NCBI GenBank assembly: GCA_016839425.1
Contig: JAEOUI010000440.1
Location: forward strand, 1 to 12,942
Source of the DNA: Promethearchaeota archaeon
Lineage (GTDB): Archaea; Asgardarchaeota; Lokiarchaeia; Sigynarchaeales; SOKP01
DNA length: 12,942 bases
Reading direction: 5' to 3'
Part shown: in pieces, positions 1 through 10,635 of the stretch
Numbering within the stretch: the stretch's first letter is position 1
Layout of the letters: the number at the start of each line of letters is the position of its first letter
Made by a program: the position numbers and the translations under genes
The notes under the pieces: model-generated
Seen by the model: only the letters and a program-made list of their open reading frames with translations
The model's database searches: none
Told to the model about the DNA's origin: nothing

Positions 1-534
1 CAACCTAAAACTGAAGAACAAAAAGCTAAAGAAAAACAACTTGATATCATTAAATATCGTATCCTTGAAAATAAAACTTGTCCAAAATGCCAAAAAAAAA
101 TGGACAAAATGAAATCACATTATGAGTGTCCTCATTGTGGAGAAATCGTGATTTTAGAAGGATATAATCAGCCGATTTTTGATAGATCCTCGTCTGACCT
201 TGATTTAAACTTTCAAGGTGATTTACCAATTAATTTTTATCTACCTGTAAGTGGTATTACCATTAAATGGTTAATGGGTGAATGGAAGGCATTAGCAGTT
301 ATTTACGCAAAAGACAACCCTAATAAAAAAGGGTTAAGGTTTTATTGGTGGGTAAGAGATTTGAAGAATTTAATGAAATATGGACAAAGAGATATGGGAG
401 CATCAACTCAAATGGGTTGGAAACTTCAAAAAGGCGTATCTTCCCCGAATATCTACGATAAAAACGAATTAAAACCTTTGATTGAAGCACTAAAAAGAGT
501 ATCAAGAGAATTAAATTGGAATACAGAGGAGTAA
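1..534 (+). CDS. Zinc-ribbon protein, 5' end outside the window
   Basis: The frame is open from the first base, so this is the C-terminal 177 residues of a longer protein; the ATG at 100 is internal and lies inside the zinc-ribbon. A charged Lys/Glu-rich lead-in (residues 1-24 of the visible part) precedes a four-cysteine zinc-ribbon, CPKC then CPHC (visible residues 27-30 and 43-46, 12 residues between pairs). A compact mixed alpha/beta region follows, with aromatic clusters (ITIKWLMGEWKAL, LRFYWWVRDL), and a C-terminal helix near 152-172. I do not recognise the family. The ribbon could bind nucleic acid or a protein partner; this is inference. It is the first visible gene of the + strand operon, and its stop at 532-534 lies 11 nt before the next start. 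Confidence 0.8.
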   Translation, partial: QPKTEEQKAKEKQLDIIKYRILENKTCPKCQKKMDKMKSHYECPHCGEIVILEGYNQPIFDRSSSDLDLNFQGDLPINFYLPVSGITIKWLMGEWKALAVIYAKDNPNKKGLRFYWWVRDLKNLMKYGQRDMGASTQMGWKLQKGVSSPNIYDKNELKPLIEALKRVSRELNWNTEE

Positions 535-545
535 AACGAGGAAAA

Positions 546-1487
546 ATGTCGAAAAGTTCTGAAAACATATGGGACCAACTTTTGAACGAATTTGCTACGG
601 GTGTTGAAAAATCAATTGAAAAATTGCAAGATAGAGATATAGAAAACATCCCGGGAGCGAGAGAGGCTCTCTTGAATCGCTTGAATAACATGAAAACATA
701 CTTTCCTAAAGATGAGGGAAAAATTTTCGTACAAGCCATAGATAATACGATACAAAACGCTTTTTTTCCAGTAACAAAAGATTTTACTGAAGCATTCTCA
801 ATGATTCTCAAATCAAGAACTCACGAGCAAGATTTTATCATTAATGAATTACTCAATGGCTTTGTTACATCAAAAGCAAAAGCAATTGCTTCTTATTCTC
901 AAGGTCCCATTATCGATCGTATGGTTGAGGCGTTTTCAAAACGAAACGATTTTCATATAGTCGACCACCAATTTTATGCAATGTTTGGGGACCCAAATAA
1001 ACCTAGGAGTTATATAAAAAGCCAATTAAAGGAACTTGTAAACCTTTTTGGTTTAGTATCCTATGAACACGAATATAAAGATGTAAGAACTAGTGAAAAG
1101 AAAATTGTGACTTTTTATACATTTCCCTCGGGAATATTAGAAATTTTAAACGAAAAATATATAGTAATAGATGAGGAATTAGGGCACGCCTATGTTTCCG
1201 AAGCGTTTGATAGGAATGTATTTATATGTATGTTTTTAGCAAATATTGCTGTTAATAGGGACGATCTTGAAAAAATTGGTGGATCATACACTGTAAATGG
1301 TATATCTGCAATATTTGCCTTGATCTTATTATTAAGCTTTATGCCGAAAGTATCGATCGAAGAAACTAACCCCATTCTCAAGGATACTTCTTTTAACGAG
1401 CAAAATATGAGCGTCATTCCAAAATCTTGGATGATGAAACAAGTATTGGAGTCGTTATTTGACCCCCTTATAAAGATCATTGAATAA
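546..1487 (+). CDS. Uncharacterised helical protein with probable winged helix
   Basis: 313 residues of unrecognised family. I chose the ATG at 546 over the in-frame TTG at 516 because the TTG lies inside the upstream gene, while the ATG sits just after it, with GAGG at 538-541 and GAGGAG at 526-531 as candidate ribosome sites. Residues 1-115 look all-helical and amphipathic. Residues about 121-205 have the order expected of a winged helix: helix, helix (RSYIKSQLKELVNLFGLV), then a two-strand wing (SYEHEY, KKIVTFYTF) and a closing helix. Residues 250-267 are strongly hydrophobic and could be a buried helix or a single membrane segment. There are no catalytic motifs. Tight spacing to its neighbours argues for a role in the same complex or pathway as the AAA+ ATPase downstream (inference). 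Confidence 0.75.
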   Translation: MSKSSENIWDQLLNEFATGVEKSIEKLQDRDIENIPGAREALLNRLNNMKTYFPKDEGKIFVQAIDNTIQNAFFPVTKDFTEAFSMILKSRTHEQDFIINELLNGFVTSKAKAIASYSQGPIIDRMVEAFSKRNDFHIVDHQFYAMFGDPNKPRSYIKSQLKELVNLFGLVSYEHEYKDVRTSEKKIVTFYTFPSGILEILNEKYIVIDEELGHAYVSEAFDRNVFICMFLANIAVNRDDLEKIGGSYTVNGISAIFALILLLSFMPKVSIEETNPILKDTSFNEQNMSVIPKSWMMKQVLESLFDPLIKIIE

Positions 1488-1488
1488 A

Positions 1489-1502
1489 GGGTTGGTGGGG
1501 GG
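1489..1502 (+). other. G-rich tract after a stop codon
   Basis: Immediately after the stop at 1485-1487 comes GGGTTGGTGGGGGG, an abrupt G-run in an otherwise very AT-rich window. It could be an overstrong Shine-Dalgarno-like element for the small ORF at 1521 (about 18 nt away, which is far), a two-layer G-quadruplex in RNA, or simply sequence drift. No function can be assigned from sequence alone. Confidence 0.35.
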
Positions 1503-1520
1503 CTTTGGTTTTCAAAAATA

Positions 1521-1682
1521 ATGATGGGAGAAAAAGAATCCCAAATAATGACTCAAATACGTTTTATGCTTCGAGATGTGTCTCCCTGGATTCTTGGAAA
1601 CTTATGTAGGGTAGAAATTCCTATCTTTGTCGAAATTGCAAATATTTTCACTGAAGTTTTAGTTGGATATCAAGAAGATTAA
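1521..1682 (+). CDS. Small ORF, 53 residues, in the operon
   Basis: An ATG-initiated frame (starts available at 1521, 1524 and 1548) runs to a TAA at 1680-1682 and fills the only sizeable gap in the + strand operon. The product begins MMGEKESQ and contains a hydrophobic amphipathic stretch (VEIPIFVEIANIFTEVLV, residues 31-48) and a Pro-Trp-Ile segment; it has no cysteine pair or known motif. It ends 10 nt before the next gene's ATG, as expected for a co-translated unit. It is in the same frame as the upstream 313-residue gene, so it could instead be a tail separated by a stop codon. No strong ribosome site sits directly upstream. The position supports it as a gene; composition alone does not prove it. 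Confidence 0.45.
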   Translation: MMGEKESQIMTQIRFMLRDVSPWILGNLCRVEIPIFVEIANIFTEVLVGYQED

Positions 1683-1692
1683 TAAGGTAACT

Positions 1693-3003
1693 ATGATGAG
1701 CAGTAAAAAAAATTATTCAAGAACAGTTAAACCTGGTAAAAAGCGAGAAAAATGGACGGATATACTCCCTCGATACCTTACATTTATAAGTCACATGAAA
1801 CCAATATTAAAAGAAACAAGGAGAATCATTAAAGATTTGGATCCTGACTTGCTCTTGGATTTGGAAATCTTGGATAAAATACGTGAAGAAGAAGAAAAAC
1901 GTAATATTCGAACGGTCAGGGCGTTATCTGAATTCTCTGCTATGTATCGATCTAATGTGTACGAAATTATGAAAGATTTCATTTCAAAATATCAGGATAA
2001 AATAGAAATTATAGATATCAAGGATTATATCCTCGAATTTTTGTATGAATCCGTAGGAGCCTTAGATGTCTTGCAACATGTGACAAATCCAGACGAAAAA
2101 AGCCTGGAAAATACTTATTTATATCGATTAGTAAAATTTTTAGAATTAAAACTCTTTCCAAGAGGGAGTAACTTGAAAGGAATATACGAAAAATTACGAG
2201 AAAATATTCCACAATTTTACGAGTGTCAAAGACACATTCTCCAACCTCACACATTTTATCGGGAAAAATTAGATGATTCTGATATGTTTGAAATTCCTGG
2301 AATATCTCCAAAAATGTACCAACTTCTTAATAATATTACATCTTTATTTAATCTGGATCCAAATTATGGAGAGTATCCAGAAAAAGAGAACCACGAAATT
2401 CCAATGATTTTAAAGAACGAAGTGTTTGCTCCGTATATTGATTCAATCGCAAACGCAGAGGAACAGTCATTAGATAAATTCGCTGATTTATTAGGTTTAA
2501 GGCTCATTGATGGTATTTTTCTTGCTCCAAAGGAAAATTTTGTTGAAATTTTGGTAGATAATAATTATTTAAGAGAAAACAAGCAATCTGATGGAACCAT
2601 AAGATATATTCCTCAATTTAGTAATGAAACCTTATTATTACATTATCTGGCGTTTTCTTCTATGAGAAGGGGTTTTTTAAGCCGAGAACTGATCAATTGG
2701 ATCTCAATGAATTTTGCTTTCTTGATATATATGGGTATATTAAAGTGGAAGTTATCTGACGAAAATATTTTCTATTCCATATTTAAAGACTTACAAACAA
2801 ACGAAAAAGTATTACCTTACTTGATGAAGCTTGCATGTTTTCCAAATTACTTGGGAATTGATAAGATGAAAATAAGGGATTCACCACAATATAGGAAGGA
2901 AATTTTCAACTTTATTGGTTCACAAATTGATAATTTAAAAGAACTAATTGAAGAAGTCGCAGATGAATGCGAGAAGATAGATAAGGAAAGAAAGAATAAC
3001 TAA
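1693..3003 (+). CDS. Uncharacterised 436-residue helical protein
   Basis: I place the start at ATG 1693 (or 1696) rather than the TTG at 1663. The upstream small ORF ends at 1682, and AAGGT at 1684-1688 is correctly placed for either ATG. The product is mostly alpha-helical, with a basic N-terminus (KPGKKREKW), an acidic charged helix pair near residues 40-75, and a C-terminal charged coiled-coil-like helix (about 408-432). A segment near 265-310 (ADLLGLRLIDGIF, FVEILVDNNYLRENK, then IRYIP) has winged-helix character. There are no zinc ligands, P-loop or protease motif. I do not recognise the family. Its place directly before the AAA+ gene makes it a candidate adaptor, scaffold or substrate-recognition subunit (inference only). 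Confidence 0.75.
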   Translation: MMSSKKNYSRTVKPGKKREKWTDILPRYLTFISHMKPILKETRRIIKDLDPDLLLDLEILDKIREEEEKRNIRTVRALSEFSAMYRSNVYEIMKDFISKYQDKIEIIDIKDYILEFLYESVGALDVLQHVTNPDEKSLENTYLYRLVKFLELKLFPRGSNLKGIYEKLRENIPQFYECQRHILQPHTFYREKLDDSDMFEIPGISPKMYQLLNNITSLFNLDPNYGEYPEKENHEIPMILKNEVFAPYIDSIANAEEQSLDKFADLLGLRLIDGIFLAPKENFVEILVDNNYLRENKQSDGTIRYIPQFSNETLLLHYLAFSSMRRGFLSRELINWISMNFAFLIYMGILKWKLSDENIFYSIFKDLQTNEKVLPYLMKLACFPNYLGIDKMKIRDSPQYRKEIFNFIGSQIDNLKELIEEVADECEKIDKERKNN

Positions 3004-3024
3004 TATAAAAGATGATAAAAAATA

Positions 3025-4077
3025 ATGTATACAAACGATGAGATAAAAGAGCGATTAGGAAAGTATGGTGCTGTTTATTTACCTGCTGATATTAAAGAAT
3101 CTGTTGAAGATATCCTTGGTAACGAGGATATCAAGGATAGATTAGACGACTTCTTTGGAGCACTTAAAAAATATGAGAAAATCGCTGATCAGTTAAAAAA
3201 AACAAAATTAACACCAAATATGACAGTATTATTATACGGTCCTCCTGGTACGGGAAAAACTTCCCTAACAAGGGCATTTTCGAAACAATATTCCATACCA
3301 ATTTGTGTAGTCGAATCGGATAGATTAGTCTCACCCCTATTAGGAGATACAATTAAGAATATCCGAAATGTAGTCGAATTAGCAGCTGACATCGCAAAGC
3401 AAAACAGTTGTTTTGTTTTATTTTTCGATGAAATCGACGCAATCGGCTCTGAAAGATCAAATATTCACGAAGTTGGGGAAATAAAGCGTGCGGTTATCTC
3501 ATTTTTACAAGTTATTGATAAAGTAAATTACGATGGAATGCCTTTAGCTATAATTGGTGCTACGAATCACCAACAACAACTAGACTCTGCCATATGGCGT
3601 CGTTTTACTTTTCATTTAAAATTTGATTTTCCTGATTACCGCCTAAGAAAATTAATTATTGAAGCTTTTATTAAAAAGATCAAAAACGCAAAATTTGGTA
3701 TTGATGAATCAATTGTCTCTAGTTTAAACAAGGAAGAAAAAATATTTCATGATATATCAACTAATCTAAATAAACGAGTAGGAAAACCAATTTCTGAATT
3801 TGATGATTTATTTCTTAAAGAATTAAATAATAAGGGCGTAAATGGATTATTAGAAGCAACTATGGGTTATTCAGGTTCTGATATTGAAAGAGGTACTCGA
3901 GTAGCTTTGTTCAAAACCTTTAGCACTGAGCTTTTAACTTTCGAGATCTTTTTAACATCGTTGAAGCTCGTTGGTGGTACTGCAACACATGTGAATAGAC
4001 AAGATGTTCTCGCTTCTGACTCTTCTAAAAACTCATACTCCGGAGGGAATCGAAAATCTCGCCCTCCTGAAATATAA
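3025..4077 (+). CDS. AAA+ ATPase, classic AAA clade
   Basis: 350 residues with a single AAA module. Walker A is GPPGTGKTS (72-80), Walker B VLFFDEID (131-138), sensor 1 is in GATNH (N181), the arginine-finger pair is RR (192-193), and the small-domain sensor-2 region is GYSGSDIERG (281-290), the form typical of FtsH/Vps4/katanin/proteasomal-type AAA proteins. All residues for ATP binding and hydrolysis are present, so a ring ATPase is expected. The pore-loop position before IKNIRNVVELA reads PLLGDT, lacking the aromatic residue common in AAA unfoldases. An insertion of charged helix (about 223-272) splits the lid, and the basic C-terminal tail (about 325-350) looks disordered. There is no MIT domain, membrane segment or peptidase domain. 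It is the only evident motor in the operon; remodelling of its neighbours' products is inferred, not shown. Confidence 0.92.
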   Translation: MYTNDEIKERLGKYGAVYLPADIKESVEDILGNEDIKDRLDDFFGALKKYEKIADQLKKTKLTPNMTVLLYGPPGTGKTSLTRAFSKQYSIPICVVESDRLVSPLLGDTIKNIRNVVELAADIAKQNSCFVLFFDEIDAIGSERSNIHEVGEIKRAVISFLQVIDKVNYDGMPLAIIGATNHQQQLDSAIWRRFTFHLKFDFPDYRLRKLIIEAFIKKIKNAKFGIDESIVSSLNKEEKIFHDISTNLNKRVGKPISEFDDLFLKELNNKGVNGLLEATMGYSGSDIERGTRVALFKTFSTELLTFEIFLTSLKLVGGTATHVNRQDVLASDSSKNSYSGGNRKSRPPEI

Positions 4078-4095
4078 ATATAGGTAATAACTTTT

Positions 4096-5133
4096 ATGGA
4101 GTATAAAAAATTCGATTTAGAAAAAATCAAGGAATTGACTAATCCAATTGAATCAATACAAGGTGAACTTAATTATCTTGATGAGGAATATAAAAAATTA
4201 GTAAATAAATGCTTTAAAATAAAACAGACTCTTCAAGAAGAGGAACTTGCCTTAAAAATCGAAAATTTATCAAAAAAGTTTGGATTTCTCAACGATGAAA
4301 TATCAACAATATGTAAAAATAACTTAAATCAATTTTTATACTTTCAAGATTTATTGATTGGGAAATATAAGGAATCCTTCAAGGATTCTCTTAAATTCTT
4401 AGATATTAGTCTGAAAAATACCAAAAAATTAGGATTGTCTTTCATAGAACAAAAGAATGTATTTAAAGTAATTGATGTACCTTCCTATATTTCATCAATA
4501 TCGTTGGATCATTGGATTAATCTTCTTAAATCTCTCAAAAACAATTCAATATTTCGTACGATTATAAAAAAAATGGAAATTTTTTTCAGTGTAATTTTAA
4601 AAAGAAATCTGGATGAAGAGCTGAATAAAATTGATCCTGATGTGGATATTGAAGTAGTAGAGGCGTATAAAAACGATTACTTCAACAATCCTATTTCTTT
4701 TCAAGATTATATGATGGCAATAGAAAGTACATTATCAAAAAGAAGTCTTATAAAAAAGCGAAAGATTGCTGAAAAACTAAAAGATAAAGAAGAACTCAAC
4801 GAATTAAAAAAGCAACAGGAAGAACAGTTTCGTTCTTCTACATATCAAGATTACATTCACCTCTCTGACGAAGAATTTGAAAGGAGAAGACGTAAACAAA
4901 AAAGAGAGAAATTATCAGAACTATCTAAAAAACCTATAAAAGAGGTTGAAATTAGTCAAGAGGTCATAGAAAAAATAGAAAAATTTAAGGAACAATTTGG
5001 CGAAAGTTTTGAAGAAAAATATTTAGTTAAAAAAGACGAAGAAAAAGACCCTCTAGAGATAATTAGGGAAAGAAAAAAGAAGAAACAAAAGGAATATAAG
5101 GCTTTCATTAAAAAATTAAAAGACGAGAATTAA
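4096..5133 (+). CDS. Charged coiled-coil protein, unknown
   Basis: 345 residues, starting at an ATG with AGGTAAT (4082-4088) upstream and ending 3 nt before the next ATG. Residues about 5-75 form a likely coiled coil; about 95-175 are more hydrophobic helices; 215-280 and 285-345 are very rich in Lys, Glu and Arg (for example ERRRRKQKREKL), giving a long charged helical or partly disordered tail. A conserved-looking segment around 180-212 (DPDVDIEV, NPISFQDYMMAIES) separates the halves. There are no catalytic motifs. If the downstream pair forms an SMC/KITE-like assembly, this protein would sit in the place of a bridging (kleisin-like) subunit, but no kleisin signature can be seen, so that is speculation. 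Confidence 0.75.
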   Translation: MEYKKFDLEKIKELTNPIESIQGELNYLDEEYKKLVNKCFKIKQTLQEEELALKIENLSKKFGFLNDEISTICKNNLNQFLYFQDLLIGKYKESFKDSLKFLDISLKNTKKLGLSFIEQKNVFKVIDVPSYISSISLDHWINLLKSLKNNSIFRTIIKKMEIFFSVILKRNLDEELNKIDPDVDIEVVEAYKNDYFNNPISFQDYMMAIESTLSKRSLIKKRKIAEKLKDKEELNELKKQQEEQFRSSTYQDYIHLSDEEFERRRRKQKREKLSELSKKPIKEVEISQEVIEKIEKFKEQFGESFEEKYLVKKDEEKDPLEIIRERKKKKQKEYKAFIKKLKDEN

Positions 5134-5136
5134 ACT

Positions 5137-6735
5137 ATGAGTAATAATAACACAAAGAAAAACTCGATAAATTTTGGAGAAAAAAAGATAAATATTTCGC
5201 AGAGATTTACCTTGATTCAAGGAAAATTCGCTAAAGACATCTTATTGCAATACAAACAACTTGGTTTATACGATATGATTCAATCATATGATATTATTCC
5301 TTTAAAGACAATTATCAATTTTTATAAGAGTAAAATAAACACATTTTCTGAATTAGATAAATCTATTAATCTGACCGATTTGTTGATCTACTATAATGAC
5401 CTAATGCAGAATAACGAGAATTTATTAATTAACTATTCTGGAGTTATCAAGAATTATAATGAACTTTATGATTATATTCAATTATTAAATAAAAAAGGAA
5501 TTTTGTTAAAAGAATTAGAGTTATCTAAAATCAAAGAAAAATCGAGTAATTTTTCCGCTAAATCTGATTTACTCAATAAATTATCTCAATCGATAAAAGA
5601 CACTCAAAATCAGCTAAGTTATTTTGAAGAAGATTATTTAAAAATTAAAACAAAGAGAAATCAAATAAACGCTTCGATTGAAGAAAAAAAGTTACAAATA
5701 AATAATTTAAACAAGGAAAAAAAAAATTGTTTCTCAAAAATTAATGCGATTACTCGAGGTATGGAAGACGATAGTTATTCTAAAAACAATAACGATAGTC
5801 CAAATCAACAACCGGCGTCAGAACGTATAAAATCGCTTCAAATCCAAGCAAAGGAGGCTCAATTTAAAATTAAGAAAACGCAATCTAATATAAATGAATT
5901 AGAGTTAAAACAAGAGAAAATTGAATTAAAATTCCAAAAACTCGATAATGATTACCAAAAATTACAAGATGTTCTTAATAAGGATACTTCGCGTTTAAAT
6001 GCACTTAAAATGGAGCTCAGCAAGGGTATGAACGATAAAACCAATTCAATGATAGTAGATCTATCACAGATGAATGAAATTAGATCTCCACCTGAAATCG
6101 AGCTCGATCTTGAAATAGTAAATAAAAACATTAATAGTTTATTGGAAGAAAACAAAATATTTCAAGGGGAAAATATTGATGTAATTTTTAATAAACTTGA
6201 TGAAAATTTTAACAAATTTCAATCCGAATTCACAAAAACAAAAAAGGACATCACATTAAATAACGATCAAGACCAATTAATGAATATCATTGGTCAATTT
6301 AGGAATCTTGAGTCATTAATAATCGAATTACAAAGTATCGTTAATGCGATGCTTTCTGAAATTAGTATTAATGTTATTTTTACTATTGTAATAGAAGAAA
6401 ATAGTAAGGAATTCTCTTTAAATTTCAAATTTAAACGTTCAAATAAGGAAGATCTAGATTTTGAAAGCTTAACAACCCCTGAAAAAATATTTTTTATTAT
6501 TTCTTTGAATATAGCCATTCAAATTCAACTTGATCAAAATAAAATAATATTTTCAAACCTTTTTGTTCAAAACGATTTTAATAAACGGGGTTCAATATAT
6601 CGCACGATAAGGAAAATAATTCCAATTTTAGAAAAAGAAAAGAAATTCAAAGATAGACTTTATATTTTTGTTTTATCGAATTTAGAAATGAAAAAATCTA
6701 TTGAAAATTTAAGTATAATAAAAATTGAAGACTAA
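5137..6735 (+). CDS. Coiled-coil hairpin with degenerate SMC-like head lobe
   Basis: 532 residues. The N-terminal about 125 residues are helical with no Walker A. Residues about 125-205 and 229-300 are two long coiled-coil stretches, separated by a low-complexity turn rich in Asn, Ser, Asp and Pro (about 208-228), which suggests an antiparallel hairpin. Residues about 395-532 follow the order of the C-terminal lobe of SMC/Rad50 ABC-ATPases: two beta strands (INVIFTIVIE, FSLNFKFKR), a signature-like LTTPEK (445-450) followed by a helix, a hydrophobic Walker-B-like strand (IIFSNL, 470-475), a helix (YRTIRKIIPILEK), and a final strand plus LSNLE (513-517) where SMC proteins carry the H-switch. 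The catalytic signature Gly-Gly, Walker-B Asp-Glu and switch His are all absent, so no ATPase activity is expected. The similarity is by layout, not strong identity. The neighbouring tandem winged-helix gene supports an SMC-like reading. Confidence 0.7.
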   Translation: MSNNNTKKNSINFGEKKINISQRFTLIQGKFAKDILLQYKQLGLYDMIQSYDIIPLKTIINFYKSKINTFSELDKSINLTDLLIYYNDLMQNNENLLINYSGVIKNYNELYDYIQLLNKKGILLKELELSKIKEKSSNFSAKSDLLNKLSQSIKDTQNQLSYFEEDYLKIKTKRNQINASIEEKKLQINNLNKEKKNCFSKINAITRGMEDDSYSKNNNDSPNQQPASERIKSLQIQAKEAQFKIKKTQSNINELELKQEKIELKFQKLDNDYQKLQDVLNKDTSRLNALKMELSKGMNDKTNSMIVDLSQMNEIRSPPEIELDLEIVNKNINSLLEENKIFQGENIDVIFNKLDENFNKFQSEFTKTKKDITLNNDQDQLMNIIGQFRNLESLIIELQSIVNAMLSEISINVIFTIVIEENSKEFSLNFKFKRSNKEDLDFESLTTPEKIFFIISLNIAIQIQLDQNKIIFSNLFVQNDFNKRGSIYRTIRKIIPILEKEKKFKDRLYIFVLSNLEMKKSIENLSIIKIED

Positions 6736-6739
6736 GGAG
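6734..6739 (+). promoter_or_regulatory. Ribosome binding site deciding a start
   Basis: AAGGAG overlaps the stop codon of the coiled-coil gene (TAA 6733-6735) and lies 6 nt before ATG 6746 and 9 nt before ATG 6749. It is the clearest Shine-Dalgarno in the operon. It argues for translation from one of these ATGs rather than from the TTG at 6725, and for translational coupling of the two genes. Confidence 0.65.
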
Positions 6740-6745
6740 TTAATT

Positions 6746-7261
6746 ATGATGAAAAATATTAATAATTATCAAGAAATCGTGAGAAAAATTTCACGTATCA
6801 TTCTAACAAACCAAAAAAGAATGATTAGGGAAGAAGATCTAAAAAATTTATGTGGGACATCCTTAGATTTTGACCAAGTTATAGGGGATGTATACTCCCA
6901 TTTGAGGGATATTGGATTTGAATTAATAAAAACTACTTTCCAAGAGCAGAAATATTATGTATTAATAGCAGAAGGAAAGGACGACCAAATTACACCTAGC
7001 CAATATGGTACATTGGCTTTAATAATTGCCTTAAGCAAGGAAGTTGATGAAAATATGAAGATTAGCGATTTAAAAGAAATTTTTTTGGAAGTATGGAACT
7101 CTGATATCGAATTTTTATTGAAGAATGATTATTTAAGAAAAATTGAAGAACTGGATATTATTAGAGTAACTCCTCTGGCAAAAGCCTTGTTCTTCAATAT
7201 CATAGGGGATTTAAAACTAAATAATTTGATAGATGTGTTAAACTCCAAGGAAAATAGTTAA
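6746..7261 (+). CDS. Tandem winged-helix protein, KITE-like
   Basis: 171 residues from ATG 6746. Two winged-helix units can be read in series. The first (about 5-70) has helices ending in REEDLKNLCG and FDQVIGDVYSHLRDIG, followed by wing strands FELIKTTF and KYYVLIAEG. The second (about 84-153) has GTLALIIALS, ISDLKEIFLEV and DIEFLLKNDYLRKIEE, then wing IIRVTP and a closing helix. This arrangement, including the hydrophobic helix opening the second unit, matches the KITE proteins (ScpB, MukE, Nse3/MAGE) that bind kleisins in SMC complexes. Identity is too weak to name a subfamily. It is the last gene of the operon, directly after the SMC-like hairpin gene, which strengthens the reading. A DNA-binding regulator with two winged helices is the main alternative. 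Confidence 0.6.
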   Translation: MMKNINNYQEIVRKISRIILTNQKRMIREEDLKNLCGTSLDFDQVIGDVYSHLRDIGFELIKTTFQEQKYYVLIAEGKDDQITPSQYGTLALIIALSKEVDENMKISDLKEIFLEVWNSDIEFLLKNDYLRKIEELDIIRVTPLAKALFFNIIGDLKLNNLIDVLNSKENS

Positions 7262-8517: not shown

Positions 8518-9471
8518 TTATAATTTTATCTTCCCGTGGACGACAAGATAAGCTGCGATTAATCCACCAAGATCAGGAAGAGATTCAACAAAGACATAAG
8601 GATTTCCATATATCATAAATAATAACAGCGCTGGTCCAATAGTCAATAAAATTATTACCCATAAAAAGGTTCTCCCTCTCATTCTCATTGGCATATATCC
8701 CATCATACCGGTGACTTGTTGATTTAATAAGGGGAGTATAGAAAGTGCCATTATCCCTATAATGGCGGCTGTAGCACAACTTGAAGGAAGCAACACGGCA
8801 ATATAAATATTATCTGGATTCAAGTACGCAAAGGGTAGATCGAGAAGGGCATACATCAGGATTTTAAAACCAGCACATAATAAATAAAATTTGACAAAAA
8901 ATATAGAACCCCGTTGCATTTCGATGATCCTTCCCATATACCATAGGAAATATACCATTATAAATAAAAAGAAAAAAGCAATTGGATCCCCAATATAATA
9001 AACAAATGGTGCTGTAAAAGCCCGCCATAGATATAAACCTATTAAAGTATCACTTATCTTTGGCATATTTTGAAAACTAGCTTCTAGAACTATTCTTGAG
9101 AATTCTACAATCGAAAACACGATTATCATTAAAATAATAAAGAGAGTTGCGTTTCCTTGAGGTCTAGAACTCTGGGCATAACCTGAATATGTTTTTTGTG
9201 CCTTTTTTCTTTCCTTTTCCTGTCTTTTGAGGTATTTTTTGAGTTGCTTCTCACTTCCTTGAACATAATCTTGAGAGTTTTGGTATGGTGCTCCTCTCGT
9301 AGGCCGGTAAAGTGTTTTAAGTTCAGTAGGGACTACTGGTTTGTGCTTTAAATCAAAGCTACATTCATGGTTTTCAGGGAGCCTGTGTTGCTTGCAATAG
9401 GTGAAACCACAATAATTACATTTAAAAGGAAGATAACCAATTTCCTCACCACAAAATTCACAATTAGGCAC
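8518..9471 (-). CDS. AN1 zinc finger fused to a catalytically altered rhomboid
   Basis: 317 residues from a GTG start, chosen because it puts the zinc finger at the N-terminus. Residues 4-37 form an AN1-type finger (C4, C7, C18, C21, C26, H29, H35, C37). A basic linker follows (about 75-95), then about six membrane segments (near 108-130, 162-180, 190-210, 223-247, 268-288, 298-312). The rhomboid fold is marked by LWRAFTAPFVYY (148-159, the WR motif of loop 1) and a Gly-Arg after the next helix (180-181). The catalytic serine motif, normally GxSGA, aligns with CATAAIIG (232-239), placing Thr234 at the Ser; the His of the last helix, normally AHxGG, is Asp300 in PDLGG. It is therefore probably a pseudoprotease (Derlin/iRhom-like in logic) rather than an active enzyme. 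AN1-rhomboid fusions are known in haloarchaea. Confidence 0.85.
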   Translation of the reverse strand: MPNCEFCGEEIGYLPFKCNYCGFTYCKQHRLPENHECSFDLKHKPVVPTELKTLYRPTRGAPYQNSQDYVQGSEKQLKKYLKRQEKERKKAQKTYSGYAQSSRPQGNATLFIILMIIVFSIVEFSRIVLEASFQNMPKISDTLIGLYLWRAFTAPFVYYIGDPIAFFFLFIMVYFLWYMGRIIEMQRGSIFFVKFYLLCAGFKILMYALLDLPFAYLNPDNIYIAVLLPSSCATAAIIGIMALSILPLLNQQVTGMMGYMPMRMRGRTFLWVIILLTIGPALLLFMIYGNPYVFVESLPDLGGLIAAYLVVHGKIKL

Positions 9472-9630: not shown

Positions 9631-10635
9631 TTATTGAGGAGGCCATATTAACCCACGGAGGCTTGGAATATAGACCATCAGATAATTGAGAATCAACAAT
9701 GCGAGTAAAGATGTAAAAAGAACAAAATACACCTTTTTATTCCATTTTAAAATGTTTTGACCGTCTAAAATGCCCAATGGGATCATGTTAAATGCACCAA
9801 GCATGAAATTAATGCTGGCGGCACTTGCTATGAAAAAATTTAGTGGATAAATTGGAAGAAATATTGAAATACCTAATAATATACTTCCGTATATTAAATT
9901 AACAGTAGGGCCCGCAGCCTTGCATCGTCCAGTTTCTTTACTTATTTTATCCAAACCTAACACTACGACGGCTCCAGGAAGAGCAAATGTAGGAGCAGGA
10001 AATTCCATGTTTAAGAACATGATGCCCATAGTTAAACTAATAACGGTTAATATCATACCAAAGGTGAGAAGCCTGAATTTTGTTTGAAATTTGTAATGCC
10101 TGGCCACTTGTCGGTGCCCCAATTCATGAAACAAGAAGGCCGTCGTGTAGAATCCAGCTAACATGAAAATAGCCCATCCATAACCAAAATTGATTAATTG
10201 CACGTTATAAAATGCGAGTAATCCAAGTAAGTAAATAAGTCCACATCCAATAATCAAATGAACAAATTCGGATTTGTAAGGAAGCAAAATTCCCTTAAAA
10301 TTAATGCCCGATCCTGGAGAAAATGCATTTTCTGGAATGGATTTTTCCTGGCGATACCAAGTGTATGTACCATCGGTTGTACCCCTTACTACGCCTACTG
10401 ATTGATGTGAATCGTAATCTTGTCCGTGAGAATAGAAGTGTTGTTCTTGTCCTATTTGAATATTATCTTCAATCAATGGCTGCGATGATTGATAAGGTTG
10501 ATGAAGTGACTCTTCCTTAAAAATCTCGCAATTATGATCTGAAGGATTTTGGTGCAACGAACAATAGCTTTTTCCGCATTCTTCGCATTTAAATAATTGA
10601 GGAACCTCTTCTAAACAAAGGTAACATTTTGGCAT
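9631..10635 (-). CDS. AN1 zinc finger fused to a site-2-type (M50) membrane protease
   Basis: 334 residues from ATG 10635. An AN1 finger occupies residues 4-36 (C4, C7, C17, C20, C25, H28, H34, C36). A long polar, Gln/His/Ser-rich linker runs from 40 to about 115. The membrane domain holds the zinc metalloprotease motif FLFHELGHRQVARH (167-180; HExxH at 170-174, catalytic Glu171), the M50 segment AAGPTVN (240-246), and the third-ligand motif LGILDGQN (287-294, Asp291). About six membrane segments are visible. All catalytic residues are present, so active intramembrane cleavage is expected; the substrate is unknown. AN1 fingers in eukaryotes are tied to ubiquitin and proteasome biology, so a quality-control or signalling role is possible but inferred. 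The next gene on the same strand carries a similar AN1 finger on a rhomboid fold. Confidence 0.9.
   Translation of the reverse strand: MPKCYLCLEEVPQLFKCEECGKSYCSLHQNPSDHNCEIFKEESLHQPYQSSQPLIEDNIQIGQEQHFYSHGQDYDSHQSVGVVRGTTDGTYTWYRQEKSIPENAFSPGSGINFKGILLPYKSEFVHLIIGCGLIYLLGLLAFYNVQLINFGYGWAIFMLAGFYTTAFLFHELGHRQVARHYKFQTKFRLLTFGMILTVISLTMGIMFLNMEFPAPTFALPGAVVVLGLDKISKETGRCKAAGPTVNLIYGSILLGISIFLPIYPLNFFIASAASINFMLGAFNMIPLGILDGQNILKWNKKVYFVLFTSLLALLILNYLMVYIPSLRGLIWPPQ

Follow-up and report, generated by a model that had tools for sequence, protein, structure and literature searches.

Can a clamp of the SMC type be driven by an engine other than its own? SMC complexes depend on their ABC ATPase, and an operon that places an SMC-like protein without a Walker A motif beside an AAA+ ATPase turns this into a testable question. 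The window considered here is a stretch of 12,942 nucleotides from a Promethearchaeota archaeon (contig JAEOUI010000440.1), and its positions 1–7261 carry such an operon, of which no description was found in the literature searched. From sequence comparison and structure models we propose, with middling confidence, that this is a core operon of the Lokiarchaeia encoding a machine that acts on DNA and descends from an SMC-type complex.

Layout, distribution and selection of the operon

Translation of positions 1–7261 gives seven co-directional genes, all on the + strand, in the order A-B-C-D-E-F-G. The intergenic gaps in the window are 11 nt (A-B), 10 nt (B-C), 21 nt (C-D), 18 nt (D-E), 3 nt (E-F) and 10 nt (F-G). 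The initial annotation had described seven or eight tightly spaced genes in one direction with gaps of 3–33 nt; the common direction and the tight spacing stand, while the number eight does not, and the true range of the gaps is 3–21 nt. The supposed gap of 33 nt falls inside gene B, and what had been taken for two helical proteins and a small ORF amounts to genes B and C alone. This ORF (1521–1682, 53 aa) is in frame with the preceding part of B (546–1487); among the named Lokiarchaeota loci covering the region, all 33 keep the frame of B open where the window has TAA (33 of the 34 listed loci, as L017 starts too late). The two pieces are therefore one gene B (546–1682) of about 380 aa, its length in relatives, with the small ORF as its 3' part. 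Gene B is broken in the window by the in-frame stop at 1485–1487, which is either a real mutation or a sequence error; past the stop the gene remains well conserved.

Gene C, scanned against 84,980 species genomes, returned at least 34 loci, all titled Lokiarchaeota or Lokiarchaeia. Among the matches listed, 26 of the 34 loci have all seven genes in the same order, five are cut by contig ends (L004, L017, L022, L032 and L034) and three bear an island between D and E (L026, L028 and L029). Across the 227 genomes of the phylum, gene A was found in 66 genomes (62 at E ≤ 1e-15), B in 62 and C in 60; G was found in 56, one of these being a remnant. Counted as 62, 62, 60 and 55 of the 227, these four genes single out almost the same set of genomes, as D also does; A and B occur together in 61 of the 63 genomes that have either. 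Gene D was detected at E ≤ 1e-40 in 63 of the 227 genomes with one match each, and in 62 of these 63 genomes at least one of A, B, C and G is present as well, in agreement with the expectation that the gene set travels with the AAA+ gene. The sole genome with D and none of A, B, C and G in the corresponding searches is G057, where an SMC gene lies directly beside D on a short contig. Because the seven-gene set recurs in most of the listed loci and A and B co-occur so consistently, the recurrence exceeds chance, and the operon at 1–7261 is real.

One block of 73 genomes, which probably corresponds to a single class, the Lokiarchaeia, accounts for this distribution: 65 of its 73 genomes carry at least one of the genes A, B, C and G, and among all genomes with any of these four, G058 is the single one beyond the block. 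In eight close pairs the dN/dS ratio is below 1 for every gene, with ranges of 0.04–0.17 for B, 0.02–0.17 for C, 0.07–0.24 for D, 0.19–0.43 for F, 0.14–0.67 for E, 0.10–0.67 for A and 0.06–0.30 for G (the last from seven pairs). The operon occurs in most genomes, usually once, and its dN/dS is low, which points towards a housekeeping function in maintaining the chromosome and away from an optional one.

Beyond G, the window continues with a convergent Lsm-type gene, a HypB/UreG-type GTPase gene, two AN1 genes (AN1-rhomboid and AN1-M50) and a SAM synthetase gene. The Lsm and HypB/UreG-type GTPase genes are the usual neighbours of the operon, together with the SAM synthetase gene where the available stretch extends that far. 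The two AN1 genes (8521–9471 and 9634–10635, − strand) encode AN1 zinc fingers fused to rhomboid-like or M50 peptidase-like domains, and such genes adjoin the operon in many of the listed loci.

Gene F as a candidate relic SMC, and its partners

The SMC-like member of the operon is gene F (5137–6735), in which the initial annotation saw a coiled-coil hairpin with a degenerate SMC-like head, and an AF2 model built from 27 sequences (pLDDT 83.4, pTM 0.57) bears this out. The model has N-terminal strands, readable as the remnant of an N-lobe, then a helical hairpin (residues 73–210 and 227–298) and a C-terminal alpha/beta lobe; the hinge domain is absent, and in the model the hairpin helices are joined by a disordered loop of 16 residues. 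Foldseek matched the model to 45 PDB chains at E ≤ 1e-3, with Rad50 as the best (1.2e-8); 44 of the 45 are by title SMC, Rad50, MukB, Jet, Lamassu or Smc5/6 entries, and the remaining one is 9a6c (YydD-YydB). The head-lobe fold of SMC/Rad50 proteins and an antiparallel coiled coil are thus both present in the model, despite low TM-scores (at most 0.23 by query), and in VIA-align many generic coiled coils rank level with SMC arms.

A motif scan found Walker A (GxxxxGK[ST]) in none of the 27 gene F sequences. Eight of the 27 ORFs as called begin past the N-terminal segment, and in seven of these (all but L078) the upstream open frame has the segment, again without Walker A. The segment mostly reads T-L-I-x-G-K or close to it and has no P-loop, the signature region is LTTPEK in most rows, and no DE occurs in the Walker B region among the rows listed. 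In the profile comparison the LTTPEK segment of the C-lobe aligns with the signature region of SMC proteins. Compared with the full-length SMCs described in the next section, the gene F profile gives prob 20 and E 0.0011 against two SMC sequences and hhalign prob 87 and E 3.8e-6 against three, a match that is partly coiled coil. Because the TM-scores are low and coiled coils are generic, the call draws jointly on the Foldseek matches, the motifs and the relatives; on these, gene F looks like a relic SMC. Like Wadjet (JetABCD) and MksBEF, the operon combines an SMC-type protein with small partners; it differs from Wadjet in that no JetC score is convincing (F, E 0.004) and in that the Toprim protein JetD was not found among the eight window pieces scanned.

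Gene D (3025–4077) encodes the AAA+ ATPase, rightly recognised as intact from the beginning: it matches Pfam AAA at 2.5e-27 and keeps its ATPase motifs, Walker A as GPPGTGKT and a Walker B-like DE. Its best named matches are models of IetA (PADLOC, 8e-60; NCBIfam IteA, 1.7e-53), and its score against the NCBIfam IetA family, 182.1 bits, is below the family cut-off of 510. Models of TRIP13 match more weakly than those of IetA, and hmmscan gave no match to a HORMA partner in the operon pieces of the window; by sequence, the nearest solved chains are VCP and Cdc48. The operon therefore resembles IetAS in the best named family of D and differs from it in the score (182 against 510 bits) and in the serine protease partner IetS, which was not found among the eight window pieces scanned.

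The remaining genes carry fewer recognisable features, and for B, C, E and G no family in Pfam, NCBIfam or PADLOC reached significance. Gene A (1–534) is present in the window as the C-terminal half of a two-half protein, its 5' end being cut by the window edge; in relatives this protein has about 320 aa and is internally duplicated, each half carrying a zinc ribbon. The two halves match each other with hhalign prob 98 and E 2.9e-13, and the zinc-ribbon matches in Pfam are all below cut-off. Gene C (1693–3003; 435 aa from the ATG at 1696) is the most conserved member of the operon. Its AF2 model consists of an N-terminal helical bundle, central helices and strands and a helical C-terminus, and has no match at E ≤ 1e-3 in the PDB or among viral models; likewise the profiles of B and C have no PDB relative at E ≤ 5. 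Relatives of C number 589 at E ≤ 1e-3, and among the best 120 of the 589, which are 76–96% identical, those named by organism are Asgard archaea. Gene E (4096–5133) encodes a fast evolving, charged coiled-coil protein that lacks a known relative, has no kleisin similarity and is unrelated to the 313-aa gene of the full-SMC version described below. Gene G (6746–7261, about 170 aa) may encode a tandem winged-helix protein, perhaps of the KITE-like kind, as read from its sequence alone; it gave no significant match in Pfam or the PDB and no significant link to KITE proteins.

A full-length SMC at the same locus

Two genomes, G091 and G094, hold divergent relatives of gene B and one of them, G091, a divergent C, as found by profile searches. 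Here the order is X-B-C-D, followed by a full-length SMC of 1057 or 1071 aa in which Walker A, signature and Walker B are all present (GKNG[ST]GKS, HSSGQK and ITAIDEF). After the SMC come a gene of 322 or 325 aa and one of 313 aa, of which G094 has 265 aa up to the contig end; an additional protein of 176 aa follows the 313-aa one in G091. The SMC of this module scores 110–116 bits against TIGR02169, which has a cut-off of 729, and in a phmmer search of the PDB that of G094 matches Smc (3e-11), Smc5 (3e-10) and Smc6 (4e-8); a hinge is suggested by a single match, that to Smc6 spanning 8–528. The 313-aa gene of G091, for which a kleisin-like reading may be considered, has no match in the PDB, Pfam or NCBIfam and its G094 counterpart none in Pfam, while the 325-aa neighbour in G094 has a weak MksE match (E 0.006, below cut-off). 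With complexes of SMC, kleisin and KITE proteins, and Smc5/6 in particular, the module shares these matches to Smc, Smc5 and Smc6 chains and the tree position given below. It differs in the added AAA+ gene and families A, B and C (in two genomes X too), and the operon of the window differs further in that its SMC part, F, is without Walker A and hinge and that its kleisin and KITE are only candidates.

In G057 and G058 the AAA+ gene also lies directly upstream of an SMC gene of the same kind, both being cut by contig ends. In a tree of Asgard SMCs, built without the SMC of G058 and without eukaryotic Smc5 or Smc6, the module SMCs of G091, G094 and G057 group together as a clade (98/98) whose sister (88/90) is an Asgard SMC class of 1131–1188 aa. 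A search of 5.8 billion proteins with the module SMC gave at least two matches at E ≤ 1e-20, and because these are so few the full-SMC version seems rare. This AAA+-linked SMC clade may bear on how accessory factors joined SMC5/6-type complexes. The earlier idea of an SMC-type assembly that has lost its ABC ATPase and has an AAA+ protein gains support from the SMC/Rad50 matches of the F model, from the lack of Walker A throughout the F sequences, and from these relatives, in which an SMC with ATPase motifs stands beside an AAA+ protein of the same kind.

How the two versions are related can be followed at the locus. Between G091 and G092, gene A shares 71% identity, against 25% for B, 23% for C and 43% for D (D of G092 is incomplete); between G094 and G092, A is 60% identical over 205 residues and B 25%. 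In G091 gene A and a 62-aa remnant of G flank the module, one on each side; both are oriented against it, and Lsm is close by. In G094 the C-terminal part of A is oriented like the module and lies before it, and the N-terminal part is located on another contig beside galactokinase and Lsm-like genes. Judging from these sequences, B–F is replaced by a divergent set at the locus in G091 and G094 and A is kept, because A is the ordinary local copy while B, C and D are divergent. That A would serve both sets suggests that their function may be equal. In the gene D tree, the island-bearing L028 and L029 are nested inside the Lokiarchaeota-type D, and G091 and G094 fall outside it; the direction of change is uncertain because long branches limit the rooting of this tree.

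Candidate functions of the operon

It is most likely, at the confidence stated for the operon as a whole, that the genes encode a DNA-acting, AAA+-driven machine; a defence system comes next and a remodeller without a connection to DNA third. In this reading the products of the operon would form one complex and bind DNA. In such a machine D would form a ring and take B or C as adaptors, and the ring would act on an SMC-like clamp, loading, opening or stripping it; the clamp would be built on F together with E and the KITE-like G and would be targeted to nucleic acid by A. Where relatives have a full SMC, the ATP cycle of the SMC itself and the AAA+ ring would work together, while in the Lokiarchaeia version the SMC part would be a passive, ATP-dead scaffold and the AAA+ ring the only motor. 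Carried this far, the reading is a tentative one: a core chromosome machine of the Lokiarchaeia with its motor handed over, in which the ABC ATPase and the hinge of the SMC would be dead or lost and an AAA+ ring would drive the remaining clamp, some relatives having kept or regained the double-motor AAA+/SMC form, two of them at the same locus.

The islands between D and E bring in the second explanation. In L026, L028 and L029 (genomes G003, G115 and G004) the genes E, F and G are found further downstream on the same strand, and the intervening islands (L075, L076 and L077) contain an ASRP-type SMC-related gene and several paralogous small proteins of about 150 aa. Genes for TGT and DUF5591 (archaeosine-type) are found in L076 and L077, a PAPS-reductase-like gene and a cytosine methylase in L075, and a HerA-like gene in L076/L089 and L077. 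The island family scan covered L075 and L077, where the ASRP-type genes score 184 and 183 of 300 bits; the putative ASRP-type gene of L076 has 669 aa. ASRP proteins (ClsN/Sph) are like the operon in belonging to the SMC superfamily, and gene F itself was ruled out as one of them (NF045487 E 0.016, 13.8 of 300 bits; hhalign prob 3). Both D and F of G003 are split, each into two ORFs (L076 8025–9175, L089 776–2326), through decay or sequence errors.

Such DNA-modification genes inserted in three loci would fit a conflict or defence system, in which an IetA-like AAA+ protein and an SMC-type sensor would act much as in Wadjet or Lamassu; after exchange at a fixed locus, the system would by now have become largely fixed among Lokiarchaeia. 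The IetA models as best named matches of D agree with this, and so do the exchange of B–F in G091 and G094, in G091 near a DNA methylase gene, and the B-like gene beside E2/E1 and JAB-type genes in G058. We nevertheless regard a defence role as unlikely: defence systems are patchy, whereas the operon is found in 65 of the 73 genomes of the block and is under purifying selection, no convincing nuclease, protease or Toprim match was obtained in the operon of the window, and its usual neighbours are the Lsm, HypB/UreG-type GTPase and SAM synthetase genes. Protein remodelling unrelated to DNA, in which D would unfold or disassemble a coiled-coil scaffold of E and F and the SMC resemblance of F would be coincidental or a re-used fold, is quite improbable: the resemblance of D to Cdc48 and proteasome-type AAA+ proteins, the missing Walker A of F and the VIA-align scores of generic coiled coils would suit it, but SMC genes adjoin the related AAA+ gene in four genomes, the LTTPEK segment aligns with the SMC signature region, and the Foldseek matches of F are almost only SMC-type.

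The gene B relative of G058 mentioned above adjoins, at L084 (G058:C831) 3–5041, a gene for an E2-E1 (UBC-ThiF) fusion and a JAB-type gene. It is detected at E 2.6e-5 with the profile built without it and at 8.8e-98 with the profile that includes it, and a ubiquitin-like partner is possible in this one lineage.

The DNA-acting, AAA+-driven machine that we prefer would not be the only SMC of its hosts, because other SMC proteins are kept in these genomes: TIGR02169 matches at E ≤ 1e-30 in 32 of the 35 genomes examined, with 11 over the cut-off. An SMC frame of 1480–1514 aa is present in 16 of the 35 (e.g., G002:C27, G001:C222 and G112:C6), and in those frames for which both ends are listed, SMC is matched by the N- and C-terminal parts, with a long unmatched stretch between them.
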